Positions 3,189-63,310 of a stretch of DNA of 64,000 nt are shown in pieces; within the stretch, counting starts at the first letter, position 1; each line of letters begins with the position of its first letter. The stretch comes from a virus. Location of the stretch: positions 1 through 64,000 of the IMG/VR virus record IMGVR_UViG_3300034198_015519; one strand, given 5' to 3'. The notes below the pieces were generated by a model that was not told the DNA's origin, did not search any database, and worked only from the letters and a program-made list of their open reading frames with translations. Both the position numbers and the translations under genes were made by a program.

Positions 3189-3560
3189 ATGAAAAACCTC
3201 ATCAAACATATTTTAAAAGAAGAGACCAATAAGTCGGTTAGACTTATTTCCAAGTACTATGATATTGAAGGGGAGGGTTCCACATATCGTGGAGATAATC
3301 AATTTCAAACCTATGTCACATTCTTTCCAAAGAACTACGATGATGATATGACTCCTCTTGCTGGAACATCTAATTGTTATTGGGAGATTGATGAAGATGG
3401 GGAACTTGAATTTAAGTTTATGACTCTACCAATGGAAACAACAATACCTATTATGTCTTATATTGGGGACACCGAAGAATTGGAAGACTACTTGGAGGAT
3501 ATTCATGTAGAGGAAGCTGAAAAGTTCTTATTAAGGATTAATAAATCCCGACTTAAATAG
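3189..3560 (+). CDS. hypothetical acidic protein with short N-terminal leader
   Basis: 123 residues. The N-terminus MKNLIKHILKEE is a short basic amphipathic helix ending in L-K-E, the hydrophobic-X-Glu form shared with many proteins in this window; a cut there would leave the remaining 112 residues. The body is rich in Asp/Glu and Tyr, with beta segments in the middle and a C-terminal helix (EEAEKFLLRINKSRL). No domain was recognised. Single-gene unit: its own TATTTATT box and its own terminator. Confidence 0.8.
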   Translation: MKNLIKHILKEETNKSVRLISKYYDIEGEGSTYRGDNQFQTYVTFFPKNYDDDMTPLAGTSNCYWEIDEDGELEFKFMTLPMETTIPIMSYIGDTEELEDYLEDIHVEEAEKFLLRINKSRLK

Positions 3561-3563
3561 ATT

Positions 3564-3587
3564 ACCCCCAACGAATGGGGTTTTTTG
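3564..3587 (+). terminator. Rho-independent terminator
   Basis: CCCCA / TGGGG stem with a short loop and six T. Confidence 0.85.
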
Positions 3588-3620
3588 TTTGACAAAATCT
3601 AACTTATTTTTTATCTTTAC
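3588..3620 (+). promoter_or_regulatory. host-type promoter candidate
   Basis: TTTG at 3588-3591, 20 bases, then TATCTTTAC at 3612-3620. This fits the Bacteroidota sigma-ABfr pattern (TTTG near -33, TAnnTTTG near -7) with one mismatch. The ATG at 3627 would fall at or next to the transcription start. Confidence 0.5.
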
Positions 3621-3626
3621 TCTACT

Positions 3627-3707
3627 ATGGGAAATCCACTATTAATTATTTGCTTTATAATTGTATATGGACTATTGGCGTTAAATGATTACTTATCAAA
3701 AAAATAA
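3627..3707 (+). CDS. 26-residue membrane peptide
   Basis: ATG at 3627, TAA at 3705-3707. The peptide is almost entirely one hydrophobic helix (LLIICFIIVYGLLAL) followed by NDYLSKK, a layout seen in small phage membrane peptides. It sits directly behind a host-type promoter candidate and 2 bases ahead of the next gene, which supports translation. It may alternatively be a leader segment of the 3710 gene. Confidence 0.5.
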   Translation: MGNPLLIICFIIVYGLLALNDYLSKK

Positions 3708-3709
3708 AA

Positions 3710-4276
3710 ATGAAATATACATTAAACACTTATGGATGGTCAGCTGAATTCATCGGTAAATCCATCACCAAAGAAGAGACAGAACAAATTGAAAACCTTA
3801 TGAAAGAACGTGAGGTTGATGAGTTATCTGAGATAAGATTTGAGATTGAGGACAATATGGACTTTGATATGTGGGATGGAGATTTATTACATATCAACAA
3901 ATCATTGGATAACGGATATACTCACTTTGAATTAATTGGTGAAGGTGGAGAGGATACCGTTTTAAGGTTCAGTATTGATGACATCAAAGCAAATGAGAAT
4001 ACCAACGAATATAATGTATTTCCAACGAAAGATTCTGATGTATATTTTAGTGTTGATGAGAATAAAGGTGGAATCTGTTCATATGTATTTGAAACTGAGG
4101 ATATCCCAAATATTGATGATTTCAAATATACTGTTGGAATAATTGAAACCCCCTCTGATAATTATTGGCAAGTTATTGATGAGATTTTATATAAGGGGAA
4201 ACCTCTTGAGGTCTATGACCATCTTGATAGCAACGGCAAATCATCCAATTTAGAAATATTTAAATTCCCTATTTAA
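3710..4276 (+). CDS. hypothetical acidic protein
   Basis: 188 residues, strongly acidic, with Glu-rich helices early (KEETEQIENLMKEREVDEL) and beta-rich segments later. It has no N-terminal leader of the hydrophobic-X-Glu type. It is translationally coupled to its neighbours: 2 bases after the 26-residue peptide and 1 base before the next ATG. No family was recognised. Confidence 0.8.
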   Translation: MKYTLNTYGWSAEFIGKSITKEETEQIENLMKEREVDELSEIRFEIEDNMDFDMWDGDLLHINKSLDNGYTHFELIGEGGEDTVLRFSIDDIKANENTNEYNVFPTKDSDVYFSVDENKGGICSYVFETEDIPNIDDFKYTVGIIETPSDNYWQVIDEILYKGKPLEVYDHLDSNGKSSNLEIFKFPI

Positions 4277-4277
4277 T

Positions 4278-4799
4278 ATGGACCTTAATAAAATACGTCC
4301 CGAAGATTATACGTTCCCTCAGACATATTCCACATACAACGAATATAAGTCTATTCGTGAGGAATCTGAATTAAGATACCTCATCCATACAAAGTATTTA
4401 AAAATGTTGGGGGAGTTTATTGAAATGATGTACCCTGGTTTAAAATTTGATATTCATATTAGAAATAGAGATCCTAAAGAACGTAGACCTGATTGGTATG
4501 GTCATACATATATGGAACTTATTGTATTTGATATGATTGCCTCCCCCGTTTATAATCCTAATACGTTTGAACCTTCGTATCGAACCCCACATTGTCAGGA
4601 ATATATTAGCGGTGAGAGATTATATTATGATATTAATTCATATATTCCTGATATTAATAAACATCTTTTAATATCTTTTTTTCGTTGTAATGATTTTTCG
4701 ATGAACCTGACGGACATCCCTTCTTTTGAATGTTGGAGACAATATTTTATGTCGGACAGTAGAAGAAGAGAAATGTCTAGAGGGTACGATTACTTTTAA
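4278..4799 (+). CDS. hypothetical protein
   Basis: 173 residues, starting one base after the previous stop, so probably coupled to it. It is rich in Tyr, Arg and His and has alternating helices and strands (KMLGEFIEMMYPGLKFDIHIRNRD). The C-terminus is basic (SDSRRREMSRGYDYF). No known domain was recognised and no leader peptide is visible. It ends a unit that began at the host-type promoter near 3612. Confidence 0.75.
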   Translation: MDLNKIRPEDYTFPQTYSTYNEYKSIREESELRYLIHTKYLKMLGEFIEMMYPGLKFDIHIRNRDPKERRPDWYGHTYMELIVFDMIASPVYNPNTFEPSYRTPHCQEYISGERLYYDINSYIPDINKHLLISFFRCNDFSMNLTDIPSFECWRQYFMSDSRRREMSRGYDYF

Positions 4800-4808
4800 T
4801 TGTTGTAG

Positions 4809-4816
4809 TATTTATA
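4809..4816 (+). promoter_or_regulatory. TATTTATA box
   Basis: 16 bases before the ATG at 4833. Confidence 0.45.
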
Positions 4817-4832
4817 TATAAAAAATAATATT

Positions 4833-5072
4833 ATGAAAAAAGTAATTAAATTAACCGAATCAGAATTAACAAATCTTGTTAACCGTATTGTTAGTGAGGA
4901 GATGGAAGATAATACTTTATACTCCGATATTATGGACGTTATAAGAAACTCTAATGCAAGTCACGAAGAAGCCGTTAGTATTTTAAGAAACATTGCCGAT
5001 GAAATGACATCAGATAGAAGAGTAAAACGTGATGCGGTATCTCGTTTTAGAGATTATAGATTGAAAGATTAA
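4833..5072 (+). CDS. small protein with IxLTES-type N-terminal leader
   Basis: 79 residues. The first 22 residues, MKKVIKLTESELTN followed by LVNRIVSE, form the clearest class of leader in this window (compare 6609, 9992, 16598 and 60589). A cut after V-S-E would release a 57-residue acidic-then-basic helical protein (SHEEAVSILRNIADEM ... DRRVKRDAVSRFRDYRLKD). No domain was recognised. A basic, DNA-associated internal head protein is a plausible but unproved role. Confidence 0.85.
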   Translation: MKKVIKLTESELTNLVNRIVSEEMEDNTLYSDIMDVIRNSNASHEEAVSILRNIADEMTSDRRVKRDAVSRFRDYRLKD

Positions 5073-5093
5073 TACTAAATGTAAAAATATTTG

Positions 5094-5122
5094 AAACCTC
5101 ATCTTAACGGATGGGGTTTTTT
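5094..5122 (+). terminator. Rho-independent terminator
   Basis: AACCTCATC / GATGGGGTT stem with a TTAACG loop, then T run. Confidence 0.85.
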
Positions 5123-5211
5123 GTTTATGGTGAGGTGTATTTTCTGGAAAAATTTTTTTACACCGAACCTCCCCCCCGCCCCCTCCTTGTTTTTTGTTTG
5201 GTTTATTTGTA

Positions 5212-5219
5212 TATTTATT
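5212..5219 (+). promoter_or_regulatory. TATTTATT box
   Basis: 4 bases before the ATG at 5224. Confidence 0.45.
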
Positions 5220-5223
5220 TTAC

Positions 5224-5607: not shown

Positions 5608-5611
5608 GATA

Positions 5612-5619: not shown

Positions 5620-5622
5620 TAT

Positions 5623-6264
5623 ATGAGAGTAATTATAACGGAATCACAAAACGCCATTCTTAGAAGATACGGAAGAATCAAGGAACTTTTTGATAACTAC
5701 TTGTTGGTACATAATATTACTGCATTTGATACTTTTGAAAGCTTCTTTCAAGGATTGTGTTGGGACATTGCTGTTGATATGATAGATAGAACAAAGATGG
5801 ATCAAGATTCATATGTTACTCTTAGAAACCAAATTATTCAGTTCGTTAAAAATCATTTTTATGAAGAATATAAAGAATGGTGGGAAAGACGAACAAACCG
5901 TATTTCTGAAAATGTATCACCAAAGGAAAAAAGCAAAAGGTTTTTAAAAGACGAACTTAATATTGATTTTACAAATGGTATTGAACAAATAACCTCATCG
6001 TATGATGTCCCAATGTCATTTGACGAGGGTATTGGTCCTGAATCGATTAGAAGGTTTTTGAACCATTGGGGTCCGATGTATCTTGTTAATATCAATGGTA
6101 AGAAATTCCTTTATCAAGACAGAGGTGAATTTGAGTGGTTTATTGATGAAGAAGGATTTGATTATGTTGATAATGAAATAATTGAAGAACTCGGTATTGA
6201 TGTAATGGGTTTAACTTTTTCTGATATTATTGACATGTATTTTAATGAGGAGGATAATATATGA
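5623..6264 (+). CDS. hypothetical protein with IITES-type N-terminus and VTLRNQI domain
   Basis: 213 residues. The start MRVIITESQNAILRR belongs to the IITE(S/N) leader class shared with 6261, 13764 and 18279. Residues about 55-88 (DMIDRTKMDQDSYVTLRNQIIQFVKNHFYEEYKEW) align with the downstream protein around its own VTLRNQI motif, so the two share a helical domain of about 45 residues. The C-terminal half is acidic with no recognised domain. The stop overlaps the next start by four bases (ATGA), so the two genes are translationally coupled. Confidence 0.8.
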   Translation: MRVIITESQNAILRRYGRIKELFDNYLLVHNITAFDTFESFFQGLCWDIAVDMIDRTKMDQDSYVTLRNQIIQFVKNHFYEEYKEWWERRTNRISENVSPKEKSKRFLKDELNIDFTNGIEQITSSYDVPMSFDEGIGPESIRRFLNHWGPMYLVNINGKKFLYQDRGEFEWFIDEEGFDYVDNEIIEELGIDVMGLTFSDIIDMYFNEEDNI

Positions 6265-6569
6265 AAATTATAATTACAGAAAATCAATATCGTTTAATTC
6301 GTAGATCATCCCAAATTGATTCTATGGTTGAACCTATTATGGATTCTGTTTATAAATTTATTCAAGGGGAACAAAGTTTTCCATTGGATAAAAGAAACTT
6401 TGCCGATTTTAAACAAATTGTTGCTTATAAATTGGCCTCCACCATTATTAATAATGAATCATTTTTAGATAACGATGAAAAGGTCACATTGAGAAACCAA
6501 ATCCAAAGGTATGTCGAGACTAATTACTATTCTAAAATGAAAGATTATTTCATGTCACTTGCAGAATAA
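6261..6569 (+). CDS. hypothetical protein, partial paralogue of the preceding gene
   Basis: 102 residues, ATGA-coupled to the preceding gene. MKIIITENQYRLIRR is the leader class; MVE at residues 22-24 is the nearest hydrophobic-X-Glu triplet. The C-terminal half (DEKVTLRNQIQRYVETNYYSKMKDYF) matches the VTLRNQI domain of the upstream protein. The two may interact or have arisen by duplication of one domain. Confidence 0.8.
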   Translation: MKIIITENQYRLIRRSSQIDSMVEPIMDSVYKFIQGEQSFPLDKRNFADFKQIVAYKLASTIINNESFLDNDEKVTLRNQIQRYVETNYYSKMKDYFMSLAE

Positions 6570-6608: not shown

Positions 6609-7094
6609 ATGGAAAGATTAATTAGACTAACAGAAAGTGAGTTAATAAACTTGGTAGAAACTCTAATCAAAGAAGATGAAGACCAATGGGTTGATGATTC
6701 ACGAGAAATGGAAGATGAGACGGATTTTTCTAAAATGGAAATCCCTCAAGAAATAGCAAACGATAAACACTTTCAAAGAATTGTTAGATTTTTTGAAAAT
6801 AATCCAGAATTGGCTAATGAGTTGGGTCAAGAACTTGATGGTAGTTTGAATGAAGATTACGAATACAAAGATTATACTGACGCTCAACCAAAAGAAATTT
6901 CTAAAAACGAGTATTGGAGAAGAAAGTTGACTACTTTAGGTCTTGGAGCACTTGCGGGAGCAATTATGGCAATCCCAATGGCGGGTGGTCTTGGTGCTGA
7001 AGATATTTTAGAAATGGCATTGGCAATGGCTGCAGGTACTGCGACAGTTGCGGGTGGGTTAATTTCTAACGTAAGTAGAACAAAAATTAAATAA
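6609..7094 (+). CDS. leader-tagged protein with hydrophobic C-terminus
   Basis: 161 residues. The leader MERLIRLTESELINLVETLI ends in I-K-E-D. A long acidic middle (residues 24-100) is followed by two hydrophobic segments at about 113-133 (LGLGALAGAIMAIPMAGGLG) and 135-155 (EMALAMAAGTATVAGGLI), rich in Gly and Ala like glycine-zipper membrane segments. If the leader does direct packaging, this would be a membrane-active protein carried in the virion. A terminator follows. Confidence 0.8.
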   Translation: MERLIRLTESELINLVETLIKEDEDQWVDDSREMEDETDFSKMEIPQEIANDKHFQRIVRFFENNPELANELGQELDGSLNEDYEYKDYTDAQPKEISKNEYWRRKLTTLGLGALAGAIMAIPMAGGLGAEDILEMALAMAAGTATVAGGLISNVSRTKIK

Positions 7095-9991: not shown

Positions 9992-10261
9992 ATGGAAAAC
10001 ATTATTAGATTGACAGAAACAGAATTAATCGATTTGGTTAAAAATGTTATAAGTGAACAAAACACCAGAAGAAAGCCAACACCTGAGGAAATAGCGAAAG
10101 GTAAAAAGACAGGATATTACACAGTGAAAAGTGGAGATGAAATGTTATTAATCGCTAAAGCATTCGGAGTTACTATTACGGACATCCAAAAGTTAAATGG
10201 ATTGACTAATAGTTACTTAAATGTGGGACAAAAATTAAGAGTAGTTAATAAAATTTATTAA
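9992..10261 (+). CDS. leader-tagged LysM-domain protein
   Basis: 89 residues. The leader MENIIRLTETELIDLVKN ends in V-I-S-E-Q at residues 19-23, a textbook hydrophobic-X-Glu site. Residues about 42-86 are a LysM domain: YYTVKSGDEMLLIAKAFGV, then ITDIQKLNGL and LNVGQKLRV, with the family's typical SGD, IxxLN and GQxL positions. LysM binds N-acetylglucosamine in peptidoglycan. The combination suggests a virion-carried cell-wall-binding protein. It has no catalytic domain. Confidence 0.9.
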   Translation: MENIIRLTETELIDLVKNVISEQNTRRKPTPEEIAKGKKTGYYTVKSGDEMLLIAKAFGVTITDIQKLNGLTNSYLNVGQKLRVVNKIY

Positions 10262-13763: not shown

Positions 13764-14927
13764 ATGGGTAGACAATTTATTATAACGGAAAATGATAAAC
13801 AAAGAATTTTATCTTTGTATGGTTTAATTAATGAGGAAACCACAACGTCAATTGTTGGTAAGGTGGTTTCTGATTATGTTATGTCTGCGGATATCCTTAA
13901 TTATAGTGAGAGTAAAACCCCTGTAGAGGATGTTGAGGTTATACTATCAACAATAGAGAACGGGTATTTAGTGAAGGAACAAAATACCACAAAAACAGAT
14001 TCGGAAGGTAAATTTAAATTTGGAAATTTAAATGTTACATCAAACATTTTAATTACTATTCCTGAATTTGGGTCTTTTAAGAAATTAGAAAAAAAATTAA
14101 AAACAATTAAACTTAACGTTGAAACCAATGTGGGAGATTTGGTGTTAACACCTAAAGATGAAGTTATTAATAAACCAACCTCATCTGAACTTAACCCATG
14201 TGGGGATTTTAAATCTACCGAAGACGAATATTATGGATATGGAGAAGGACCTATGGATGTTTCATCGTGGGACCCTAACAATTTGACATTATCCAAACCG
14301 GTAATTATGGCATTACAGTCCGCAGTTTTAGAATACTTTAAAACTAATGAAGATGTAAATGCCAATCTTGAAGAAATTACGGACGCAGTTGCTGATATTA
14401 AAAATAAATTGGATTATGAAATAGTTTGTAATAAAAATATTATGAACAATAATTATGTTGTTGTTAAAATTACTAAAGAAGGATTTGAAAAATTTATTTT
14501 AGATTTGATGATGTCGAATAACGAAATCACACCAGAAACTGAAAGTAAAATTGAATTTGAAGATATCCCTTTTAAGGAGGCATTACAAAGGTCTTGGGAT
14601 TTTGATAGAAATATATTTTTATTAGTAGGTTTAAATAGTGATGACAACACCAAAGAAACGTTAAACAAATTAAACTCATCAAAGAATAACGTTGATGTAT
14701 TAAATTCGTCCAAATACTTACCATTATATTACCAAGTTGATAGAAGTAACGAAGACCATTATATGGCGGCATCGGAACCTTTGAATATTGATACCTACCC
14801 TACTGTGGTTGTGTTGAAAGCATCTAAGGACCCTAAAACAAATTACATTAAAGATAGTATTGAAACGTTATCAAAGATAGATGGGGTGTCTAATGATTTG
14901 ACATCTCTTGATGATTTAAAATTATAA
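13764..14927 (+). CDS. leader-tagged protein with a carboxypeptidase-regulatory-like beta-sandwich
   Basis: 387 residues. The leader MGRQFIITENDKQRILSLYG ends in L-I-N-E-E at residues 22-26. Residues about 33-126 form a beta-rich domain with the typical features of CarboxypepD_reg-like or Cna-B-like folds: TPVEDVEVILSTIENG, TKTDSEGKFKFGNL, and a strand before a NVGDLVL end. Residues 150-387 are mixed alpha/beta without a recognised family. A structural or surface-binding role is likely from the domain type. Confidence 0.8.
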   Translation: MGRQFIITENDKQRILSLYGLINEETTTSIVGKVVSDYVMSADILNYSESKTPVEDVEVILSTIENGYLVKEQNTTKTDSEGKFKFGNLNVTSNILITIPEFGSFKKLEKKLKTIKLNVETNVGDLVLTPKDEVINKPTSSELNPCGDFKSTEDEYYGYGEGPMDVSSWDPNNLTLSKPVIMALQSAVLEYFKTNEDVNANLEEITDAVADIKNKLDYEIVCNKNIMNNNYVVVKITKEGFEKFILDLMMSNNEITPETESKIEFEDIPFKEALQRSWDFDRNIFLLVGLNSDDNTKETLNKLNSSKNNVDVLNSSKYLPLYYQVDRSNEDHYMAASEPLNIDTYPTVVVLKASKDPKTNYIKDSIETLSKIDGVSNDLTSLDDLKL

Positions 14928-14952: not shown

Positions 14953-15315
14953 ATGGACAACAAGATTAAACAAGAATTACAAGAAATGAAGTACCTTTTT
15001 GGTTATAAGGCTGGGAAAGTTATTTCAGAACAAGAGAATAGACCTGTCGAAGAAGACATGGATATGATAGACTTAAATACGGATGCAGATATGGACGTAT
15101 TAGACATTGAGGATATGGATGATGTGGAATTTGGTGATACCACTATAAAACCACAAGTAAGACCTGATGTCGATACACCAACAAAACCTAAAAAACCTGG
15201 TACACCTTATAGTCCAAAACCAGGACCTAAGAAGAACCCTAAAGCTGAGGATGAAAGTGGATTACCTAATTGGTTATCTTTTGATGAATTAGGAATTGAA
15301 ATGGGAGAGGAATAA
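14953..15315 (+). CDS. leader-tagged acidic protein with Pro/Lys-rich tail
   Basis: 120 residues. The leader (MDNKIKQELQEMKYLFGYKA) ends in V-I-S-E-Q at residues 26-30. Residues 35-60 are almost all Asp, Met, Glu and Ile; residues 75-100 are Pro/Lys-rich (TPTKPKKPGTPYSPKPGPKK), so most of the protein should be disordered. Overlaps the next start by one base (TAATG). An acidic, disordered, cleavable protein is typical of phage scaffold or core proteins, but this is inference. Confidence 0.8.
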   Translation: MDNKIKQELQEMKYLFGYKAGKVISEQENRPVEEDMDMIDLNTDADMDVLDIEDMDDVEFGDTTIKPQVRPDVDTPTKPKKPGTPYSPKPGPKKNPKAEDESGLPNWLSFDELGIEMGEE

Positions 15316-16595
15316 TGAAAAAACATCTATTAGAAGAAAAAAATCTATTAAGAGCAAAACTTGTTCTTGAAGGTCTGTCAGATAATGAGATGGACAGATT
15401 GGCAACCATTAATTCCAAACTTAATGAAGCTCCTATAGATTATGAAGGACCTGAAAGAATGGAACCGGGTATCGAAAGAAAAATCACAGGTAAAGAAACT
15501 CCTTACCATAACTTCCCTGCTATCCCAAAAATGGATAGAGACTTTATTGAATTGATTTCATCTAAAAGATTTAAAGATTCAGTAGAGAAAGTAAGAAGAT
15601 ACATGGGTAACACACAAGTTATTCAAGGGGGTAACCCACTTATGCAATTGATGATGACTGTTATGCAGTCTATGCAACAAATTGTCGGTATTCAAATGAG
15701 ACACAAAGAAGAATTGGAGCAACTAGCGATTAAACTTGTTCAAGAAGAGATGGGTATTCCTGAAGGTGCGATGCAATTCAAAGCTGAACTTGTAATGCAA
15801 CCGATGGGTGCTGCCGAAGGGATGCAATCTGAACCTGAATTACCATCAGAAGAAGAAGTTGAGGAGTTTATGGGTGACATGGAAACTTTTAATTTAGAAA
15901 GATCTAAAAGAAGATTCATTAATTCACTCATCCAAGGGGCCGCGTTTAAGGGAGGACATATGTATGTTTTAGTTTCTAACGAACTTAACGATATGGACCC
16001 AAGATTATTAAATCTTTATGGTGTATCACAAGCATTAATGGAACATGCTTATTGGATTTTCCCTGATATGGAAGGTATGGCCGGTGGTGGCGGTGGTCAA
16101 ATGGGTCAATCAGAGGTTGATGAAGAAACAGACCCACCAACAGTTAAGGCAAAGGCGGTAACATTCCCATTATTGGTTCACGAATTAGTTAAAGGTGTGT
16201 ATGAAATCTTTGGAACTCACGGTTTACCTGATGATCCAAAACAACAAGAGATGATTTTAAATGCTGAAGATACATTACCAGCGGAAATATGGGATTCAAG
16301 ACTTGGTCCTATCTTTTGGGAGAAGTTTACGTCTACCTATCCTATGGAATTGTTTGATGAAGATAAAAAACACATCCAACACTACTTGTTTATGCGATTT
16401 TCGGCACTTGACGCTAAAGAATTCTTTAAAATTGCACAATTAATAATGAATGATGACCCTAAAGGTAGACAATTCATTGAAAGATTGGTTGATGGTATCA
16501 TAAATGACTTAAAAAAACAAGCTTACAAAGAAGCATTACCAGATGAAGATGATGATAATTATGACGACATCGATTTATCGGATTTAGGATTATAA
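15315..16595 (+). CDS. hypothetical probable virion or assembly protein
   Basis: 426 residues, overlapping the previous stop by one base. MKKHLLEEKNLLRAKLVLEG has a leader-like basic helix with L-V-L-E-G. A methionine-rich helical segment at about 110-165 (LMQLMMTVMQSMQQIVGIQM ... EELEQLAIKLVQEEMG) looks like a coiled coil. An internal Gly run (GMAGGGGGQMG) separates two helical halves, and the C-terminus is very acidic (DEDDDNYDDIDLSDLGL). Position between scaffold-like tagged genes suggests head assembly. No family was recognised with confidence. Confidence 0.8.
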   Translation: MKKHLLEEKNLLRAKLVLEGLSDNEMDRLATINSKLNEAPIDYEGPERMEPGIERKITGKETPYHNFPAIPKMDRDFIELISSKRFKDSVEKVRRYMGNTQVIQGGNPLMQLMMTVMQSMQQIVGIQMRHKEELEQLAIKLVQEEMGIPEGAMQFKAELVMQPMGAAEGMQSEPELPSEEEVEEFMGDMETFNLERSKRRFINSLIQGAAFKGGHMYVLVSNELNDMDPRLLNLYGVSQALMEHAYWIFPDMEGMAGGGGGQMGQSEVDEETDPPTVKAKAVTFPLLVHELVKGVYEIFGTHGLPDDPKQQEMILNAEDTLPAEIWDSRLGPIFWEKFTSTYPMELFDEDKKHIQHYLFMRFSALDAKEFFKIAQLIMNDDPKGRQFIERLVDGIINDLKKQAYKEALPDEDDDNYDDIDLSDLGL

Positions 16596-16597: not shown

Positions 16598-16891
16598 ATG
16601 AAAAAAATGATAAAAAGAATCACAGAAACGGAAATTAACAGAATTGTTAAAAATATTGTTAATGAAAATGAAGATTTCGTAACCGGAATATCAGCATCTG
16701 AAAGAACTGAGTTGGTTGATGACGTAATTAATAGAATAAATGAACATGGGACAGACTATATTGTTGAATTAAACAAATTAAATAGTGAATTCCCTGTTGA
16801 AAGATATAAAAGACAAGAAAGAACAAGAAGAACTGATTTTGAATTACCAAAAGGTGTCAGAGTTAAAAGTAGTATCTTTCCTGAAGACTAA
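16598..16891 (+). CDS. small leader-tagged basic protein
   Basis: 97 residues, 2 bases after the previous stop. The leader MKKMIKRITETEINRIVKN ends in I-V-N-E-N. The rest is helical, then strongly basic (ERYKRQERTRRTDFELPKGVRVK). Same architecture as the 79-residue protein at 4833: leader, acidic helix, basic tail. Likely an internal head or DNA-associated protein if the leader is a packaging signal. Confidence 0.8.
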   Translation: MKKMIKRITETEINRIVKNIVNENEDFVTGISASERTELVDDVINRINEHGTDYIVELNKLNSEFPVERYKRQERTRRTDFELPKGVRVKSSIFPED

Positions 16892-18278: not shown

Positions 18279-18833
18279 ATGAAAATCATAATTACAGAGT
18301 CACAATACCGTTTTTTGGTTGAAAATACCCAAGAAATAGACCAAATTTTGGATAAAATGAACGAAATTGGGTACGAAAACCTTGAAAATGAGGAAAAAAT
18401 GACCCTAAAATCGTATTCTGAATGGTTAAATAGTGGTAAAAAGGGTGAATTTACCCCCCAAAACACCCCTAAAAACACCGATTTTGAGGGTAAAACAGGT
18501 GAAAAATGGACCCGTACATTACAAGATGGTAGTGAGTTTACTTTCCAATTTGACTATGAAGAGATAGAAAATGATGTAGAATTATACTTCGGTGTGGTTA
18601 AATGGAATGATACTGAATGGGTTGGTTGTATTGTTGCTGAAAAAGATGGTTCTTTAGCTCTTTTAGACTTTGTTGAGGATACTGGTGATTACGAAACTTA
18701 TGATAACATGCAGATTTCATCTAAATTCGAACCAAAATCACATAGATATCTAAATAGTGAACTTGGTAATTTAGAAGATGAGGTTGATTATTTTGTTGAA
18801 GAAGTGATTATTCCTGAATTAAGCGATAATTAA
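18279..18833 (+). CDS. leader-tagged protein with a DUF6576-like motif
   Basis: 184 residues. MKIIITESQYRFLVEN is the IITES leader, with L-V-E-N at residues 13-16. It is followed directly by IDQILDKMNEIGYENLENEE, which resembles the short motif (ILDKIxxxGYDSLTxEEK) found at the C-terminus of Bacteroidota rhomboid-family membrane proteins and catalogued, as far as I recall, as DUF6576. The rest is an acidic beta-rich domain with a Trp-rich segment (FGVVKWNDTEWVGCIVAEKDG). Function unknown. Confidence 0.75.
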   Translation: MKIIITESQYRFLVENTQEIDQILDKMNEIGYENLENEEKMTLKSYSEWLNSGKKGEFTPQNTPKNTDFEGKTGEKWTRTLQDGSEFTFQFDYEEIENDVELYFGVVKWNDTEWVGCIVAEKDGSLALLDFVEDTGDYETYDNMQISSKFEPKSHRYLNSELGNLEDEVDYFVEEVIIPELSDN

Positions 18834-18860: not shown

Positions 18861-19325
18861 ATGATAACTAAAAAAGAATTAATTAAAAAAGGTTTCAGTT
18901 CATCTTCATTGGTCTCCGAACAAGAAGAAGAAAAAGAGATGGATAAAAAACCATCAGGAAATGGTAAATTTACAGAAATGATGTCATTACTACTTCATTC
19001 AAGAACACAAGTACATACATTACATTTACAAACAAATTCATACCCTGAACACATGGCATTAAATGGGTATTACAACGGTATAGGAGATATCATTGATGGG
19101 TTAGTTGAATCATTCCAAGGAAAATACGGAATTTTAAATGGATACAAATCTTACGACATTGAGGGATATAAAAGTACTGAATCAACTATTAAATATTTAC
19201 AAGATCTTTGTGGTAAAGTTGAGGATTTAAGGGATTGTTGTGATGACTCATACATTCAAAACCAAATTGATACTGTTTGTGAATTAATAAACTCAACATT
19301 ATATAAATTACGTTTTTTAAAATAA
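18861..19325 (+). CDS. leader-tagged ferritin-like (DUF5856-like) helical protein
   Basis: 154 residues. The leader MITKKELIKKGFSSSSLVSEQ ends in L-V-S-E-Q; from residue 35 the protein is a helical bundle with MMSLLLHSRTQVHTLHLQTN, SYPEHMALNGYYNGIGDIID and FQGKYG. These resemble the phage and giant-virus family DUF5856 (LR..V.L.HW.T.SYA.H.A...L...D.FVE.YQGKYG), which is distantly Dps/ferritin-like. His/Glu pairs that could bind metal are visible (H at the LHL segment, E and H in PEHM). Role unknown; DNA or metal binding within the head is possible. Confidence 0.7.
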   Translation: MITKKELIKKGFSSSSLVSEQEEEKEMDKKPSGNGKFTEMMSLLLHSRTQVHTLHLQTNSYPEHMALNGYYNGIGDIIDGLVESFQGKYGILNGYKSYDIEGYKSTESTIKYLQDLCGKVEDLRDCCDDSYIQNQIDTVCELINSTLYKLRFLK

Positions 19326-19454: not shown

Positions 19455-20027
19455 TTACTCTATTCTTCCGAAATTCATAAACGTACCGCCATAATAACCG
19501 TTTAAAATATCGTTAGTTATCTTAACTCCCGTTGCGGTACTTTCTGAGTGTATCATATTTATTTTTTCACCATCAATTGAGTGGACTATACCTATGTGGT
19601 CAGCACCTGCCCTACTCGGTCCATTATCAAAAAATATCATATCACCTGGAACAACTTCGCTTTTATCAACAACCTTTGCTTGGTTTCGTAAACTTTCTGC
19701 CGTTCCTCTTGGTATGGTTACACCTGCCTGATTATAAGCCCAAGTAACTAACCCACTACAATCAAATCCTTCTTCAGGTGTTTCATCACCCCAACTATAA
19801 GGTTTACCTAATTGGGTTACGGCAGCATCCACTATTGACTGACCCGTCTCACTATATTTTAAATTTTTAGGTGTTCTTTTAGTTACATTTGATGGGTCTG
19901 TTAAATCTAAAGACCCGATAGCATCTCCAACCTTTTTTCCTGTTGACGGATCAATCATTTCACCATACTTACCTCCTTGTTCTACAAGTAAGTCTGATAG
20001 ATTTTTTAACAGTGATATTTTAGACAT
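19455..20027 (-). CDS. NlpC/P60 peptidoglycan hydrolase with leader
   Basis: 190 residues from the ATG at 20027, chosen over 20042 because the TATTTATT box lies between them. The N-terminus MSKISLLKNLSDLLVEQGG carries L-V-E-Q and fits the leader pattern. The catalytic domain covers about 65-190: YSWGDETPEEGFDCSGLVTWAY with the nucleophile Cys, ADHIGIVHSI with the His, and a downstream NMIHSES for the third polar residue. NlpC/P60 enzymes cut gamma-D-Glu to diamino-acid links in peptidoglycan stems. Probably a virion-associated wall-opening enzyme. Confidence 0.9.
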   Translation of the reverse strand: MSKISLLKNLSDLLVEQGGKYGEMIDPSTGKKVGDAIGSLDLTDPSNVTKRTPKNLKYSETGQSIVDAAVTQLGKPYSWGDETPEEGFDCSGLVTWAYNQAGVTIPRGTAESLRNQAKVVDKSEVVPGDMIFFDNGPSRAGADHIGIVHSIDGEKINMIHSESTATGVKITNDILNGYYGGTFMNFGRIE

Positions 20028-23289: not shown

Positions 23290-24861
23290 TTAACGTCCTG
23301 GGTTATTTGCCTTTCTATTTCTTTCAAAGTCCCTATCTCTTTTATTATATAATTTCTGTGTTCTACGTTCAGTAGTACCAGGGGATAGATTTTTTAAATG
23401 GAATATACCTTTCCTTAAATAAAGTGATTCGTTCTTAGTCGGCATTTCAAAATTAAAATCAAGTTCAATATTAGCAGCCTTACCACCAACATATCTAAGT
23501 ACAATTATTCTTTGTGATATTGTACCACTAAGTTGGTTACTTGCGCTAACAGTTCTTTTAGATGTTTTATAAACCATAAATCCTATTGATATTTCGGAGT
23601 ACTGTCCCGCATTAGGGTATTGTGTTTTATCTCTTTCTTCATCTACTTTACCACCTGTATCTGTAATTCTAAGTTCCGTTTCAATACTATTCGCCCAATT
23701 CGATGATAAATTTAACCCAGGGGTTTTACCTAAATCTTGCATAACTAACTGTATTAAGTTATTAGCTCTATCTCTTGCTAGTTTAAGATTTTTAGGGTTT
23801 TTACCTGAACTTGATATTTCGGTAACATCTTTAATTTTATCACCATTATTTTTGTGAGTAAAATCTAAAACCTCATTCGTCCACGTATTACTTGCCGATG
23901 ATACTATAGTTGCATCGGTTACACTTATACGGTATTGAGAGTCACAGTTATCGGTCCCACACTCAATCATCTCTTTAACTGTTTTAGTTTCACCACCAAT
24001 AGTAACTTCCGATTGATAAATTTCATTTAAAATTCTATCCATAAGACCTTTAAAAAACATACCAGGATCGGATGACCCCTTTGCATATTTTCCAGGTATA
24101 CGTGGCATCACAACATTAAGTTCTCCTGTTTCATTAATCACGTTTTCTGGTGAAAGTTCTTTAGTTTTTAATGGTCTTGATGCCCTTGCAAATAATGTTG
24201 ACATTACAGATTTTTGTAATGGTAAAGAATTAACGTCTCCTGATTTTTTATCATATGAAAAATAACTTGCAGTTTTACTTAAAATTGTCCCTTCATTAGA
24301 GTTACTGTTATTAAGGTTTGTTATCTCACTAGTCATCACAGAATTTAAAGTATCTAAAGATGACATATCACCCTTACCGCTAACTTTAATGTCTACTGTA
24401 GAAATTGCATCGTCAGGAGTAATAATATCAAATTTCCATTTTTGTGATTTCTTAAAGAATTTTTTAATTTTTTTAAGACCTTCTTTGTCTTCTTTAGGTA
24501 ATTTTTGACCATTAATTAATAATGTAATCGCATTATAAAATCCATTTGCTAACATATTTTTAGTTTCAGTTGGTAGATTTTTAAACTCTGTATCACCCCC
24601 TAATTCCGCATTCATTTTACCTAACACATCGCCAACAGTATCTAAACCTTTATCTAGTTCTTTTTCATAACTAAAATCAAGACTCATTCTTCCTGGATCT
24701 CTTTGTCTACCTCTAAAATTAAATTCTTTATTACCAAATTCACCACCAAGACTAAAACCGCCCTTCTTAGTTTTTTGTTCACTTATAACTTTTTTAGGGT
24801 CATAATTGGTTAAAAAACTAATTCGTGTTATTTCTTCTAATATTTTTTTATCTTCTTCCAT
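23290..24861 (-). CDS. leader-tagged 523-residue protein, possibly OmpA-like
   Basis: The leader starts MEEDKKILEEITRISFLT and ends in V-I-S-E-Q at about residues 25-29. A Gly/Phe-rich segment follows (KKGGFSLGGEFGNKEFNFRGR). In the C-terminal third, a segment around residues 340-385 (VTEISSSGKNPKNLKLARDRANNLIQLV) resembles the strand-then-NxxLSxxRAxxV helix of OmpA-type peptidoglycan-binding domains; the similarity is partial. The C-terminus is basic (RRTQKLYNKRDRDFERNRK). Could be a virion protein that contacts the cell wall; uncertain. Confidence 0.75.
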   Translation of the reverse strand: MEEDKKILEEITRISFLTNYDPKKVISEQKTKKGGFSLGGEFGNKEFNFRGRQRDPGRMSLDFSYEKELDKGLDTVGDVLGKMNAELGGDTEFKNLPTETKNMLANGFYNAITLLINGQKLPKEDKEGLKKIKKFFKKSQKWKFDIITPDDAISTVDIKVSGKGDMSSLDTLNSVMTSEITNLNNSNSNEGTILSKTASYFSYDKKSGDVNSLPLQKSVMSTLFARASRPLKTKELSPENVINETGELNVVMPRIPGKYAKGSSDPGMFFKGLMDRILNEIYQSEVTIGGETKTVKEMIECGTDNCDSQYRISVTDATIVSSASNTWTNEVLDFTHKNNGDKIKDVTEISSSGKNPKNLKLARDRANNLIQLVMQDLGKTPGLNLSSNWANSIETELRITDTGGKVDEERDKTQYPNAGQYSEISIGFMVYKTSKRTVSASNQLSGTISQRIIVLRYVGGKAANIELDFNFEMPTKNESLYLRKGIFHLKNLSPGTTERRTQKLYNKRDRDFERNRKANNPGR

Positions 24862-27108: not shown

Positions 27109-28476
27109 ATGAACGAATTTATTTCCCAAATCAGTAGGATAAAAACTATGATGGCGGTTAACGAAGATTTCCAAAACAACCCATCGGTGGCAGTTATTGG
27201 AGACCAAATTGCATATCTCCTTGATAATTCTGACTTATTACGTCCTTTTGAATTAATCGACCCTGAAATGACAATAGATGAACTAACTGAAAAATTGGTA
27301 GTTCACGAGCCATATGAAAATATTAATCAGGTATTTTTCTCTATTGGTACTAACGATATGTTTGAACCTGATTCATCAATAACAACATTAATTAATGAAA
27401 TGTTTAGGGTTTTTCCTAACGCCGAATTATACTTAATGAAGGGGTATATAGATATCGATGAATATGATTTAACTGAAGATGAGGTTTTAGAGTTAGAAGA
27501 AAACGCAATCGTATTTTACAATTTAATTAAAAAAGATAAAGTTAAAGTTGTTGGGGACTACCCTTTAATTGGAGATGAAAGACTAATTAAAGGTAGTAAA
27601 GTAATATCTAACTTAAAATCATATATAGATGCATTTATTTCACCAATGTCAGATATCGCAACTATTGATAATGAACCATTAATGAAACCAGAGGTTTTTG
27701 TTGATTTAGATATTGATGAAGACGCCGATTTTGATACCATATATGAATTTTTAGAAAATTTTGAGGATATTGTTAATTCAGGTAATGACTATAGTACCGA
27801 CATGTCTTCTGATTATATGGGTGATATTGAAATGATACAAGTGGCTTTAAAGTTCTTAGGGTATAGTAATATTAATACTGATGGTCGGTACACCCAAAAT
27901 ACTGAAAGAGCTGTTAGGGATTTCCAAGCAGATAACGGATTGTCCATGACTGGTGTTGCCGATGATGAAACATTAGAATCTATTTTTTATGAATTAAAAA
28001 TTAAAGGCTTTGATGATAATGATTTATCTAAATTTTTAATGGGTGAAATTCCTAATGAAGATGAGATTGAAAAAGATGCAAAAACAGTCGGGGCAGATGA
28101 ATTCAAATCGAATATTAAATCATTAGGGTTTGGATTAAAAAATAATGGTGAAGATGTAAATAGTGGTGGTGAACTTAATGGTACTTTCTTAGGTATTGTT
28201 TTGGAATTACTAAAAGATTATCAAGAAATTGAGCCTAATGCGGACATATACATTACAAGTGGTAATGATAATTTCCACCATAACTTGGAGTATGAGAGTT
28301 TACATACAAAAGGTAGAGCGTTGGATTTAACTTTAGGTTCACAGTTTCATTCCGGATTTAAAAAACTAATGGACAACTATAAAGATCTATATTCGGGATT
28401 TGGATATATTGATGAGTATCTGAATCCTTCAGATGCGTCTACAGGCCCCCATTTCCATTTACAATATAAAGGTTAA
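27109..28476 (+). CDS. leader-tagged SGNH-like, PG-binding and M15 peptidase fusion
   Basis: 455 residues. The leader MNEFISQISRIKTMMAVNED ends in A-V-N-E-D. Residues about 25-185 look like an SGNH hydrolase (VAVIGDQIAYLL, FFSIGTNDMF), but the nucleophile position of GDS is Gln here, so this part may be inactive. Residues about 240-300 are a PG_binding_1 domain (VALKFLGYSNINTDGRYTQN, AVRDFQADNGL). Residues about 325-455 are an M15-type D-Ala-D-Ala or D,L-carboxypeptidase domain with HTKGRALDLTL and a terminal PHFHLQY supplying the zinc ligands. Likely a virion-associated wall-degrading protein. Confidence 0.85.
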   Translation: MNEFISQISRIKTMMAVNEDFQNNPSVAVIGDQIAYLLDNSDLLRPFELIDPEMTIDELTEKLVVHEPYENINQVFFSIGTNDMFEPDSSITTLINEMFRVFPNAELYLMKGYIDIDEYDLTEDEVLELEENAIVFYNLIKKDKVKVVGDYPLIGDERLIKGSKVISNLKSYIDAFISPMSDIATIDNEPLMKPEVFVDLDIDEDADFDTIYEFLENFEDIVNSGNDYSTDMSSDYMGDIEMIQVALKFLGYSNINTDGRYTQNTERAVRDFQADNGLSMTGVADDETLESIFYELKIKGFDDNDLSKFLMGEIPNEDEIEKDAKTVGADEFKSNIKSLGFGLKNNGEDVNSGGELNGTFLGIVLELLKDYQEIEPNADIYITSGNDNFHHNLEYESLHTKGRALDLTLGSQFHSGFKKLMDNYKDLYSGFGYIDEYLNPSDASTGPHFHLQYKG

Positions 28477-49415: not shown

Positions 49416-49416
49416 T

Positions 49417-53817: not shown

Positions 53818-53818
53818 A

Positions 53819-60588: not shown

Positions 60589-61077
60589 ATGAAAAAAATT
60601 ATTAGACTAACGGAATCAGATTTAACAAGAATCGTTAAACGAGTTATCGAAGAACAAAAAACACAACCTATCGTTGATGCTGGATATAGCCGAGACATGC
60701 AAGGTTACGCTATTGCGTTATCACAACCAACAGTAGCTCCTGGTTCTGGACACAGAGGTGTTGCTACAGCACAAGTTAAATTCAACGGTATGAGAATTAA
60801 AAATAATGGTGAAGTTGTAGTTAAAGGTGGTATCGTACTTTACGCTGGATGTGGAAAAGAGATTGATGGTGTAAGTCAAAACCCTGCTAACTTAAGCCCA
60901 AGAAGTTCTGCTGACCTTTTTGAAGGTGGTAGTACATACGTATTCTCAAAAGGTGGTGCTATTGATAAAGCGGTAAGAGCGTACTGTGATTCAAAAGGAC
61001 AACCAAGTTCTCCATCTGCAGGATCACCTATGAATGTTGTTGCTGGAGCAAAAGAAGCAATGGCTTTAGTAAAATAA
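60589..61077 (+). CDS. leader-tagged protein, likely abundant
   Basis: 162 residues. The leader MKKIIRLTESDLTRIVKR is the clearest copy of the IIRLTES class and ends in V-I-E-E-Q at residues 19-23. The mature part is a Gly/Ala/Val-rich beta domain (VKFNGMRIKNNGEVVVKGGI) with two Cys, then a helical end (AAAKEAMALVK-like). Codon use shifts to preferred forms (GCT, GGT, GTT) compared with its neighbours, suggesting a highly expressed structural or internal protein. Ends at a strong terminator. Confidence 0.85.
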   Translation: MKKIIRLTESDLTRIVKRVIEEQKTQPIVDAGYSRDMQGYAIALSQPTVAPGSGHRGVATAQVKFNGMRIKNNGEVVVKGGIVLYAGCGKEIDGVSQNPANLSPRSSADLFEGGSTYVFSKGGAIDKAVRAYCDSKGQPSSPSAGSPMNVVAGAKEAMALVK

Positions 61078-61100
61078 GTTAAAATTTTAAATAAATAAAA

Positions 61101-61127: not shown

Positions 61128-61129
61128 TT

Positions 61130-61573: not shown

Positions 61574-61668
61574 ATACTTTTTTTTTAAAGGGTTTATAAA
61601 TGATTACACTACAAAGATATTGTTTTTATTTAGATTTCCAAAGGTTTTTAAAAATATATTTGTTTTTT

Positions 61669-61704
61669 TTTAAAAAAATAAAACCCCATCCGAAGATGAG
61701 GTTT
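61669..61704 (-). terminator. terminator of the tmRNA
   Basis: Minus strand: CCTCATC-TTCG-GATGGGG then a long T run. Confidence 0.85.
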
Positions 61705-61709
61705 AAAAT

Positions 61710-62107
61710 TGGTGGAGGTGCGGGGACTCGAACCCCGGTCCAGCCTATCCTGTCAGATAAGGACTACACGTTTAGGTCAAGGTTTGTCATACCTTCCGAA
61801 ATATCTGAGTTTTCACACCGCTCAGCGACGGTGGTAGTTCTTACGGGGAACCACACCCGTTTTTGTTTCTTTTTGGGTAGAAACCACACCTTAAAGACTT
61901 CTGTTGCTAGGTTATGTGTCCACCGACCCCCCGTTGCCGTACTTAAATTAAGCTACAGTAACTTCTTGAGTTGAGATAAGTCCCAAAGTCTCAAGGTTGT
62001 TCAAAACGTTGCCGTCTAAAAAAATAAACCAGTTTTTAAGGAGATTAGTTCAGTCCCCACGTGCCCTTATTCCTCAGCCAATACCTGTCAAATCCAAAAA
62101 CACCCCC
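61710..62107 (-). ncRNA. ssrA: tmRNA
   Basis: 398 bases on the minus strand. The 5' end GGGGGTG (62107-62101) pairs with CACCTCC before a genome-encoded ACCA end at 61710, giving a seven-pair acceptor stem with the G3-U pair that alanyl-tRNA synthetase recognises. The 5' region continues GTTTTTGGATTTGACAGG, matching the conserved tmRNA start (E. coli: GATTCTGGATTCGACGGG). The T arm is GGGGTTCGAGTCCCC. The tag region is preceded by TAGAC (E. coli TAGTC) and reads from a GGC resume codon at 62013 to a TAA at 61948: 21 codons, beginning GNVLNN and ending QEVTVA. Tag length and ending differ from the common short ALAA-type tags. Confidence 0.95.
61948..62013 (-). other. tmRNA tag reading frame
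   Basis: GGC resume codon at 62013-62011, 21 sense codons, TAA at 61950-61948. The other two frames stop within four or nine codons. Confidence 0.85.
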
Positions 62108-62126
62108 ATACTTTCAAAGAACTATT

Positions 62127-62158
62127 GTAAAGATAGTATAAAACTTTATATTAAACAA
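62127..62158 (-). promoter_or_regulatory. host-type promoter candidate for the tmRNA
   Basis: Minus strand: ATTG, 20 bases, TATCTTTAC (62135-62127), ending 19 bases before the mature 5' end. A short precursor leader would be removed by RNase P. Confidence 0.5.
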
Positions 62159-62160
62159 TA

Positions 62161-62168
62161 TATTTATA
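62161..62168 (+). promoter_or_regulatory. TATTTATA box
   Basis: 5 bases before the ATG at 62174. Confidence 0.45.
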
Positions 62169-62173
62169 AATAT

Positions 62174-63310
62174 ATGAAAAAAATTTTAAGGATTTTTGAA
62201 CAAGAAGAAGAAGAGTTAAACGACTTTCAAAAAATTCTTGCACTTAATAAAAGAAAAATAAGCCCTAGTGAAGTTGAGTTTTATAATTCTGAAGGTAACG
62301 ATTTTAGCAATATAATCACTGTAGAACAAGACGGTTTAATGTTTACTTTTGATGGGTTAGAGGAGTATTTAAGATTCTTTTTTCCTGATTATTATTCTGA
62401 AGAAAATACTGATGGATATTATGAAGCGGGTTATTACGATTCTATGTACCGTGGAAATTGGACTTGGGATTTTGATGATAGATCTTATGATGACTGGAGA
62501 GAGGGTATTATTGTTGAAGCTTTAAACTCAGACCATTTACAAATTATTTACGATGTTGCAAAAATTATTCAACCAGGTCTTTTAAAATCTTTTGATGTGG
62601 GTAATGATAAAAAATTAAAAATAAATAACCCTGAAAATGTGTGCTCATTTTTAGAACAGGTGGATAATAGAATATCTGATGATTTAACGGGTACTTGGGT
62701 AGATGCTAGTGTTGCTGCGGTTGATGGTGAAGTTGGAAAATATATTGAGGATACTTATTGTAATTGTTTAACCCCTGTTGGTATTGAAAGGTATTCTGAA
62801 AAGTATTGTTTTTGGAAATATAAATTACATTGGGGAGATGCGATTATGTTATATCCTCGTTTTGGTACTGAAGAAGACAATCTTCTTGATTTATTATTTA
62901 TGGCAATTGAAAAAGAACCCATATCCCACTTACCTGAATATTATGAAATACAATATAATATTTGGAATAATGAAGAGTTTGATGCTTCGTTTATCCACAA
63001 CGCCGATAACGATTTAGAAAACTTTAGAGACAGAGTACTTGAGGATGCTAATGATGAGACTATGAAAAAATATTTTTCGATAATTGATAAAATTAACTCA
63101 ACAATCGGATTTGACCAGTATGTTAAAATACCAAATAGTGATGTTACACTAATGGTTAAAAGTGTTGATAAAGAAACCCTAAAAGTGAAATACGCACTTA
63201 CTAACAGAAAAACATATATTACCAAATACGGAGAGTCTTATACTGACGATATCCTAAATATGGTTTACAACGAAAGTTTATTTAACCCAATGGATTATAG
63301 AAAAAATTAA
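62174..63310 (+). CDS. hypothetical protein with short leader
   Basis: 378 residues from the ATG at 62174; a longer frame to 61997 would run through the tmRNA and is rejected. The N-terminus MKKILRIFEQEEEELNDFQ is a basic hydrophobic helix ending in I-F-E-Q. The protein is acidic and aromatic, with a Trp/Asp/Tyr-rich region at about 80-120 (YDSMYRGNWTWDFDDRSYDDW) and otherwise helical. The same I-F-E-Q form occurs in no other gene here, so its place in the leader set is uncertain. Its stop overlaps the convergent metallopeptidase gene. Confidence 0.75.
   Translation: MKKILRIFEQEEEELNDFQKILALNKRKISPSEVEFYNSEGNDFSNIITVEQDGLMFTFDGLEEYLRFFFPDYYSEENTDGYYEAGYYDSMYRGNWTWDFDDRSYDDWREGIIVEALNSDHLQIIYDVAKIIQPGLLKSFDVGNDKKLKINNPENVCSFLEQVDNRISDDLTGTWVDASVAAVDGEVGKYIEDTYCNCLTPVGIERYSEKYCFWKYKLHWGDAIMLYPRFGTEEDNLLDLLFMAIEKEPISHLPEYYEIQYNIWNNEEFDASFIHNADNDLENFRDRVLEDANDETMKKYFSIIDKINSTIGFDQYVKIPNSDVTLMVKSVDKETLKVKYALTNRKTYITKYGESYTDDILNMVYNESLFNPMDYRKN

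Follow-up and report, generated by a model that had tools for sequence, protein, structure and literature searches.

Among the closest known systems for targeting proteins to phage heads is that of the T4 internal proteins, whose propeptides of 10–19 residues direct them to the core and are removed by gp21, which cuts after L/I-x-E (PMC9026906, in part). The annotation of X04567.1 gives IPIII a leader of 10 residues. In P1, the first 30 residues of DarB suffice to load a reporter into heads, and according to the authors the Dar N-termini yield no consensus by BLAST (PMC9024508, in part). The giant phages phiKZ and SPN3US have numerous proteins in the head or ejected from it, and their prohead proteases, gp175 and gp245, respectively, are Glu-directed; in SPN3US an N-terminal propeptide is removed from eight proteins, 20–24 residues long in two and 111–254 in the rest, and the sections of these papers available to us mention no shared leader (PMC10052503; PMC9026906).

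The DNA analyzed here, called the window, comprises positions 1 to 64,000 of the virus record IMGVR_UViG_3300034198_015519. Many of its proteins begin with short, propeptide-like leaders (about 9–38 residues) like those of T4 IPI, IPII, IPIII and Alt, and the likeness, judged by eye for the leader itself, extends to an L/I-x-E site, a gp21-family protease in the genome and diverging mature parts (for T4, PMC9026906, in part). Unlike the handful of T4, leader-like starts numbered 40, 22 and 13 in the compared genomes G014, G022 and G017 and 6 in the Flavobacterium phage immuto, as counted with a conservative pattern for which decoy rates give about 2 to 4 each by chance. About five leader types, in contrast to T4, were distinguished by eye: IRLTESDL...RVIxE, IITESQ..., ...RI..L.G..ISE, the short IIKKVLKE, and FDLKKFLxENKL of immuto. 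By eye only, immuto gene 199, with FIAE/A (the slash marks the putative cut), resembles T4 IPIII. As with P1 DarB, an N-terminal capsid targeting sequence is predicted here, but unlike in the Dar proteins it is common to many proteins. As with phiKZ and SPN3US, there would be many head or ejected proteins and a Glu-directed prohead protease, to judge from the genes. It is probable (roughly 0.85) that the leader acts as a capsid-targeting propeptide like those of the T4 internal proteins, targeting, cleavage and packaging being inferred; the system as a whole is best read as an expanded one, built from several types of leader, in Bacteroidota phages of fresh water and the gut.

Leaders in the window and their relatives

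The original prediction had listed 20 leader-bearing proteins, and at all 20 starts the translation agrees with the N-terminus that it quoted; each has at least one (I/L/V/M)-x-E within residues 1–40 (Table 1). The IITE-type proteins at 5623, 6261 and 18279 are weak and uncertain members of the set, and the internal start at 62,174 within the 61,997 gene is probably the source of the end coordinate first given for the region. As to the domains said to follow the leaders, LysM, NlpC/P60 and MORN were recovered and the ferritin-like assignment is backed by DUF5856 and the starvation-inducible phrog_858, whereas M15 had no Pfam match at E ≤ 0.01 among the window proteins. For the 60,589 protein one relative was found, on a near-identical contig.

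Table 1. Leaders in the window and the prohead protease gene of the same record (a slash marks the putative cut site)
Feature	Positions	Strand	Evidence
Leader MKNLIKHILKE/, minimal helix type	3189..3221	+	Translation
Class A leader, ...NRIVSE/E	4833..4898	+	HMM 2.7e-8
IITES-type leader; E7 or E21 as candidate cut site	5623..5685	+	Translation
IITEN-type leader; E7, or E24 then Pro, as candidate cut site	6261..6281	+	Translation
Class A leader, ...ETLIKE/D	6609..6674	+	HMM 4.3e-6
Class A leader, ...KNVISE/Q; LysM domain after	9992..10057	+	HMM 8.5e-5
IITEN-type leader, ...GLINE/E	13764..13835	+	Translation
Amphipathic leader, ...GKVISE/Q	14953..15030	+	Translation
Leader with end SKLNE/APIDYEGPERM	15315..15428	+	Orthologue comparison
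Class A leader, ...KNIVNE/N	16598..16666	+	HMM weak, 0.15
IITESQ-type leader, ...FLVE/N; cut site uncertain (E7 or E15)	18279..18323	+	Translation
Leader ...SLVSE/Q; starvation-inducible (ferritin/Dps-like) domain after	18861..18920	+	Translation, domain match
Leader MSKISLLKNLSDLLVE/Q; NlpC/P60 after	19980..20027	-	Translation, domain match
Leader ...KKVISE/Q	24778..24861	-	Translation
Leader ...MMAVNE/D; peptidoglycan-binding domain further on	27109..27165	+	Translation, domain match
Leader ...IMFLNE/A	28509..28565	+	Translation
Leader ...KTLSE/Q; peptidoglycan-binding domain further on	28907..28984	+	Translation, domain match
Leader ...PIISE/Q	31027..31110	+	Translation
Leader ...YNLVTE/S; MORN repeats further on	34472..34543	+	Translation, domain match
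Class A leader, MKKIIRLTESDLTRIVKRVIEE/Q	60589..60654	+	HMM 7.6e-16
Short leader MKKILRIFE/Q, internal start of 61,997 ORF; less certain	62174..62200	+	By eye
gp21-family (S77) protease	75,506-76,213 of record, beyond window	+	Matches 1.3e-25 and 4.4e-24

In IMG/VR, at least 120 stretches match the I-R-L-T-E-S-D core pattern of the class A leader, and 3 match its codon-permuted control. An ATG lies 4–9 residues ahead of the core in 88 of 89 inspected matches, and all 83 non-redundant leaders run on to (I/L/V)-x-E, versus 41 of 229 internal 18-mers. The class is modular: by blastp, the 81 mature parts fall into 68 families. Its residues ahead of the Glu are strongly conserved, and its cut point is ambiguous because LTE inside the core also fits L-x-E. 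Codons at the conserved residues vary synonymously, the Arg at +13 being encoded by AGA, CGA, CGT, AGG, CGG and CGC. A tblastn search of named phages with the 29-residue leader, a short query with little power, gave no match at E ≤ 10; the letters RLTESD were not found in the literature searched, and a survey of titles and abstract openings, with most subscription papers outside it, yielded no mention of such a leader in these phages.

Among orthologues, leaders differ as far as the x-E site. All 31 distinct N-termini of the 15,315 family end in L/I-x-E after variable leaders; an alignment of the family also lacks invariant residues ahead of Glu38, but this is not counted as evidence, as many of its rows are cut at the matched region. 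Position P3 is L in 26 of these N-termini and I in 5, unlike in phiKZ and SPN3US, whose cleavage motif is A/S-x-E, with A or S at P3. Likewise, the x-E site is kept in 20/20 sequences of a post-capsid gene, at the aligned column, and in 19/19 of the FFSNL gene, despite differing leaders. Leaders stand where genes begin and vary among the orthologues of one gene, as could also be expected of a DNA- or RNA-level element, namely a translation-start enhancer or a recombination seam that encodes similar residues by accident. The synonymous codon variation and the single protein-level end site shared by distinct leader sequences argue against such an element, which is hardly credible.

Chance was assessed by counting leader-type starts, defined as a TE core or an 8-residue helix, with internal Met residues as decoys. 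Of the 83 window ORFs with at least 60 aa, 10 had such a start, versus 1 of 354 decoys (Fisher p = 4e-7); the figures were 23/563 versus 19/2,805 in the clade G001–G010, 40/367 versus 11/1,150 in G014 and 22/254 versus 12/917 in G022. The enrichment was modest in G017 (13/537 versus 14/1,714) and immuto (6/218 versus 7/652), and control phage loci did not exceed decoys (7/786 versus 20/2,688, p = 0.65). The start patterns were drafted with the window, G014 and G022 listings already known, which makes these tests not fully independent, and with the control N-termini unseen. One could still suppose that ordinary N-terminal amphipathic helices were over-read by eye, all the more as bare hydrophobic-hydrophobic-x-E at residues 10–25 itself shows a 1.9x enrichment in control phages (39 cases, with 20.5 expected). 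The motif alone therefore proves nothing, and its count was dropped as a stand-alone test. Over-reading is nevertheless extremely improbable in view of the TE core at N-termini, observed 26 times versus 0.4 expected in G014 and once versus 0.7 in controls, of the number of pattern stretches in IMG/VR and of the decoy-level rate in control loci. The evidence lies in the leader family rather than in the bare hydrophobic-x-E motif, and the leaders are confirmed as real.

The prohead protease and the predicted capsid cleavage site

A gp21-like prohead protease, the search for which had been proposed with the original prediction, was found in the same record, outside the window, where it adjoins a T4-type terminase and portal; the phage is T4-type. 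Among tag-bearing records of at least 40 kb, 24 of 45 have S77 above the cut-off versus none of 15 controls, one of which has a sub-threshold match (p = 1e-4); for records of 40–100 kb the figures are 10/27 and 0/13 (p = 0.016). Shared ancestry may account for part of this co-occurrence. S77 was not found in the remaining 21 of the 45, which include 4 of the 18 tag-bearing records above 100 kb. None of those 21 yielded Gp23, in a search whose controls gave no match, although the same family matched 12/12 relatives in another search, and a T4 portal was detected in one, near the record end. These records may thus be fragments minus the head module. Terminase and S78 searches of 11 of them indicated no alternative head type. 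The 214-kb G016, also without S77, is not accounted for.

The capsid propeptide site is known from relatives only, because the record ends before gp23. In those relatives, 34 of 36 distinct matches at the propeptide end are LINE/A (27), LIYE/A (6) or IVSE/A (1), and the other two look like chance regex matches. The leader end shares its site shape with this capsid propeptide end.

An alternative is that the leader is never cut and serves as a targeting or docking helix that stays bound to the core, the portal, a replication compartment or a membrane. The strong conservation of class A ahead of the Glu fits such a role, as do the leader helices at residues 2–18 and 23–35 that a model predicts for the 15,315 protein (mean pLDDT 63; no match at E ≤ 0.001 in a fold search). 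The same model, however, is disordered right after the site (pLDDT < 50 at residues 37–79), the x-Glu is the constant feature across differing leaders, the capsid propeptide of relatives ends in the same site shape, and the record has a gp21-family protease; an uncut helix is quite unlikely.

A proposed route into the head and the proteins that carry the leader

In the propeptide reading, a prohead core would form and the basic amphipathic N-terminal helix would bind this gp22-type core or scaffold and so bring the tagged protein inside. The S77 protease would then cut after (I/L/V)-x-Glu, as it is expected to do where the major capsid propeptide ends, and release the mature cargo inside the head, where it would remain with the DNA and be delivered, at least partly, to the next cell. 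Binding, cutting, packaging and ejection are all deduced from genes and motifs. The several leader types seem to share one function, and the tag would thus work as an address label on many unrelated proteins. Hosts are presumed to be Bacteroidota, except that of immuto, which is Flavobacterium; as an isolate, immuto makes the tag hypothesis directly testable. A literature search found no virion proteomics for such phages, and the accessible text of a Flavobacterium phage paper contains neither "mass spectrometry" nor a mention of immuto (PMC7077304).

Those sequence-level expectations of the original prediction that could be checked came out, namely the protease, the site shape, the modularity and the near-absence of the leader from replication, tail, terminase and glycan proteins. 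Homologues of known function were tagged in 1 of 75 cases versus 109 of 1,166 other proteins (p = 0.011), and the single case is probably due to chance. Many of the domains recognized on tagged proteins act on the cell wall by binding or cutting it (LysM, PG_binding_1, NlpC/P60, phage lysozyme), which would suit an export or tail-targeting signal whose wall-active carriers go to the baseplate or to the envelope of the host instead of the head. Yet tail and baseplate homologues in the compared genomes are without the tag, superoxide dismutase, Dps-like and LRR proteins also bear it, and the site shape is that of the capsid propeptide, all of which makes such a signal very improbable.

If the propeptide reading is true, a readable, cleavable tag would allow the packaged proteins of large uncultured phages to be listed from sequence alone, gut phages included, many unannotated genes would gain a place and time of action, and natural cargo tags might serve for loading proteins into Bacteroidota phage heads. 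A wider proposal, in which a broad group of large phages of Bacteroidota uses the leader as its general code for packaging and lone chromosomal tagged genes encode host or satellite proteins that enter heads, is unlikely. Were it true, up to about 40 tagged proteins per genome in freshwater and gut phages would make up a kit shipped by each virion (wall enzymes, superoxide dismutase and Dps-like proteins, along with numerous unknowns), and lone chromosomal tagged proteins would use the phage label for sabotage or hitch-hiking. As for the possibility, raised at the outset, that the leader might sit mainly on cytoplasmic host proteins, it is rare in cellular genomes, with 15 stretches in the genome collection and usually one tagged copy where copies were counted. 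Tagged genes occur in 12 Bacteroidota assemblies, some without phage-like neighbours, and the assemblies with lone tagged genes are mostly from ruminant-gut Bacteroidota.

Leader-type starts and their excess over chance

All the N-termini named in the original prediction, which had described a shared leader on about twenty unrelated proteins, were found by translation, two minus-strand genes included; its end coordinate is probably explained by an internal start at 62,174. The hydrophobic-x-Glu end was also borne out, as at least one (I/L/V/M)-x-E lies within the first 40 residues of each of the 20 named proteins. Candidate cut sites are weak in several of them, notably in three of the IITE type (5623, 6261 and 18279).

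Leader-type starts were defined by a TE core or by an 8-residue helix ending in x-E, and decoys were made by letting the same proteins start at internal methionines. Such starts number 10/83 in the window versus 1/354 decoys (p = 4e-7), 40/367 versus 11/1,150 in the 296-kb phage record G014, and 22/254 versus 12/917 in the 242-kb record G022; these three comparisons are not blind, since the definitions were written after the window and the G014 and G022 listings had been seen. The clade G001-G010 gave 23/563 versus 19/2,805. The excess is only modest in G017 (13/537 versus 14/1,714; 400 of 409.5 kb covered) and in the isolate Flavobacterium phage immuto_3-5A (6/218 versus 7/652). An unrelated P-loop pattern was used to draw control phage loci, whose N-termini were unseen when the definitions were written; these loci had no excess of leader-type starts (7/786 versus 20/2,688). 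A bare hydrophobic-hydrophobic-x-E motif is not specific for leaders: at residues 10-25 it is enriched in the control phages too (39 versus 20.5 expected).

Modularity of the leaders

Searched for in IMG/VR at the DNA level, the core I-R-L-T-E-S-D-(L/F) matched at least 120 stretches, and a codon-permuted pattern of equal degeneracy matched 3. Among 80 listed loci there were 89 matches, 88 of which sit 4-9 residues after an ATG; the other (L214) has no in-frame ATG upstream. Codons vary synonymously at the conserved residues, indicating that it is the protein that is conserved. Removal of duplicates from the matches listed left 83 class A proteins, all of which have (I/L/V)-x-E within 18 residues past the searched core, as against 41/229 18-mers taken from their interior. 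The sequence behind the leader is indeed mostly unrelated from gene to gene, with 68 families among 81 post-leader parts compared (blastp 1e-3). A leader profile, a search proposed in the original prediction, was run over 15 records (the window's own included; some of the 15 had supplied training sequences). Seven records had matches at E < 1e-3, 36 in all, and 33 of these matches fall in the first 19 residues of a called ORF. Class A copies in five large records number 13 (G014), 11 (G023), 10 (G017), 8 (G022) and 7 (G015).

The strongest test of the leader reading is the comparison of orthologues with different leaders. The protein starting at 15,315 has 64 relatives in IMG/VR, of which 59 have a readable start, with 31 distinct N-termini. 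Their leaders vary in length and sequence, and all 31 end in Leu (26) or Ile (5), any residue and Glu; next comes Ala (30) or Asp (1), then Pro and YEGPERM. The structural model of this protein, with two leader helices and disorder from residue 37 on, is only suggestive given its mean pLDDT of 63. In the post-capsid gene (I/L/V)-x-E occupies one aligned column in 20/20 sequences (two of 22 rows, incomplete or mis-called, were left out), and the stretch ahead of it is merely a handful of residues in a few rows; in the FFSNL gene the motif is kept in 19/19. Seven proteins scattered over G014 have near-identical IITESQYKLIKE-type starts; several are mutually related, and their relative at 49,859 lacks that start. 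The window's Dps-like protein, in keeping with the ferritin-like one of the original prediction, bears a leader, which its G022 relative lacks. The G022 superoxide dismutase and its G002 relative have different leaders, with the LISE/FINE boundary kept. A further leader type was seen in immuto_3-5A.

Coordinates of leader-bearing and other genes (arrow, presumed cut point)
Feature	Record	Position	Remark
Dps-like protein	window	18861-19325	starvation-inducible, DUF5856
UvrC-like nuclease subunit	window	16947-18221 minus	GIY-YIG, by eye
Proteins with long Gly-Ser-Ser and Pro-Thr repeats	window	42742-46659; 46661-47290	probably fibre-like
Glycosyltransferase-like and sugar-modification genes	window	47295-56419 minus	block inside late region
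Small basic protein	window's record	74739-74927 minus (L002:14739-14927)	between portal and protease
S77 (gp21-family) prohead protease	window's record	75,506-76,213	4.4e-24
IITESQYKLIKE-type starts	G014	78974, 116808, 166712, 239222, 239708, 242222, 283644	
Fe/Mn superoxide dismutase	G022	149309-150814 (L282:9309-10814)	N-terminal leader
F(D/N)L(K/R)(K/S)FLxEN(K/R)LT leaders	immuto_3-5A (L083-L086)	1803, 103762, 117587, 118588	two directly before terminase gene
Head-module protein	immuto_3-5A	123534	FIAE↓A, as in T4
Exact class A leaders	Bacteroidota GTDB assemblies	L443, L445, L446, L447, L450-L457	

The prohead protease and its expected site

The window makes up bases 1-64,000 of a 78,265-base IMG/VR virus record, the rest of which holds a T4-type head module with terminase, a gp20-type portal (1.4e-75), an acidic scaffold-like protein and the gp21-like protease that the original prediction had suggested looking for. 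The small minus-strand gene in this module looks by eye like ribosomal protein bS21; the layout is similar to that of freshwater Bacteroidetes phages with bS21, whose genomes reach 331 kb (excerpts of PMC9723584). The protease segments His-Pro and Ser-Ser-Arg-Gly, presumably catalytic, are kept in 48 distinct sequences, a set made of matches to a self-written motif for them.

The capsid gene lies beyond the end of the record; the T4-type capsid family Gp23 was matched in 12/12 longer relatives examined. The capsid propeptide ends typically in ENQASHLINE↓A in relatives, in LIYE↓A in the gut-type G017 and in IVSE↓A in immuto_3-5A, so that the expected gp21 capsid site is shaped like the ends of leaders, for example VISE↓Q, IVSE↓E, LINE↓E and FLNE↓A.

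S77 scored above cut-off in 14/18 tag-bearing records >100 kb and 10/27 of 40-100 kb, and in 0/15 control records of at least 40 kb, with one sub-threshold match (overall p = 1e-4; 40-100 kb alone, 10/27 versus 0/13, p = 0.016). Among the 21 tag-bearing records without S77, a family search found Gp23 in none and a T4 portal in one, close to a contig end; neither Terminase_6N nor S78 was found in the 11 searched. These records may lack the head module because they are fragments; G016 (214 kb) stands as an unexplained case. S77, Gp23, T4 portal, Terminase_6N and S78 were all not found in the tag-bearing G016, G024 and G027 (L163, L135, L169; 214, 146 and 160 kb).

In T4, propeptides of 10-19 residues target internal proteins to the core and are removed by gp21, which cuts after L/I-x-E; for IPIII, the ten N-terminal residues are sufficient (excerpts of PMC9026906). 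In phage P1, loading of DarB is brought about by its 30 N-terminal residues (excerpts of PMC9024508). Since the window leaders, known here from sequence alone, match these tags in the sequence-level features tested, we read them as probable capsid-targeting propeptides (roughly 85%). Their scale and their spread over large Bacteroidota phages look new, as does the sharing of one apparent cleavage logic by several leader types.

Tagged proteins and tagged genes outside phages

Functions were assigned to 75 ORFs in four records by homology to annotated immuto_3-5A genes (replication, nucleotide metabolism, glycan synthesis, terminase, portal, capsid, tail, baseplate). Only 1/75 has a leader-type start, versus 109/1,166 other ORFs (p = 0.011); the one is an aminotransferase, whose start probably fits by chance. 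A Pfam scan of 70 class A proteins gave few matches: PG_binding_1 (3) and LysM (2), along with DUF6576, a SAM-like domain and zinc ribbons. Further leader-bearing proteins, part of them placed in this set by a loose listing alone, carry NlpC/P60, LRR, MORN, Fe/Mn superoxide dismutase or Dps-like domains, or phage lysozyme together with GDSL lipase. These domains would fit delivery through the envelope together with the genome, and the G022 superoxide dismutase is a candidate packaged antioxidant enzyme.

The core pattern matched 15 stretches in a genome collection of, by its description, 257 billion bases; 14 are N-terminal leaders and one (L444) is internal to a protein. Two of the 14 share a Prochlorococcus-labelled contig, likely a phage contig because S77 is also on it. 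The other 12 are in Bacteroidota assemblies, mostly ruminant-gut; among six counted, five have one class A match and one has two. S77 was above cut-off in 3/14 assemblies searched, two of the three being Bacteroidota. Some of the Bacteroidota tagged genes sit in apparently ordinary chromosome, and these genes may be prophage relics, satellites or host genes. The tagged gene of L446 adjoins what look by eye like CRISPR genes.
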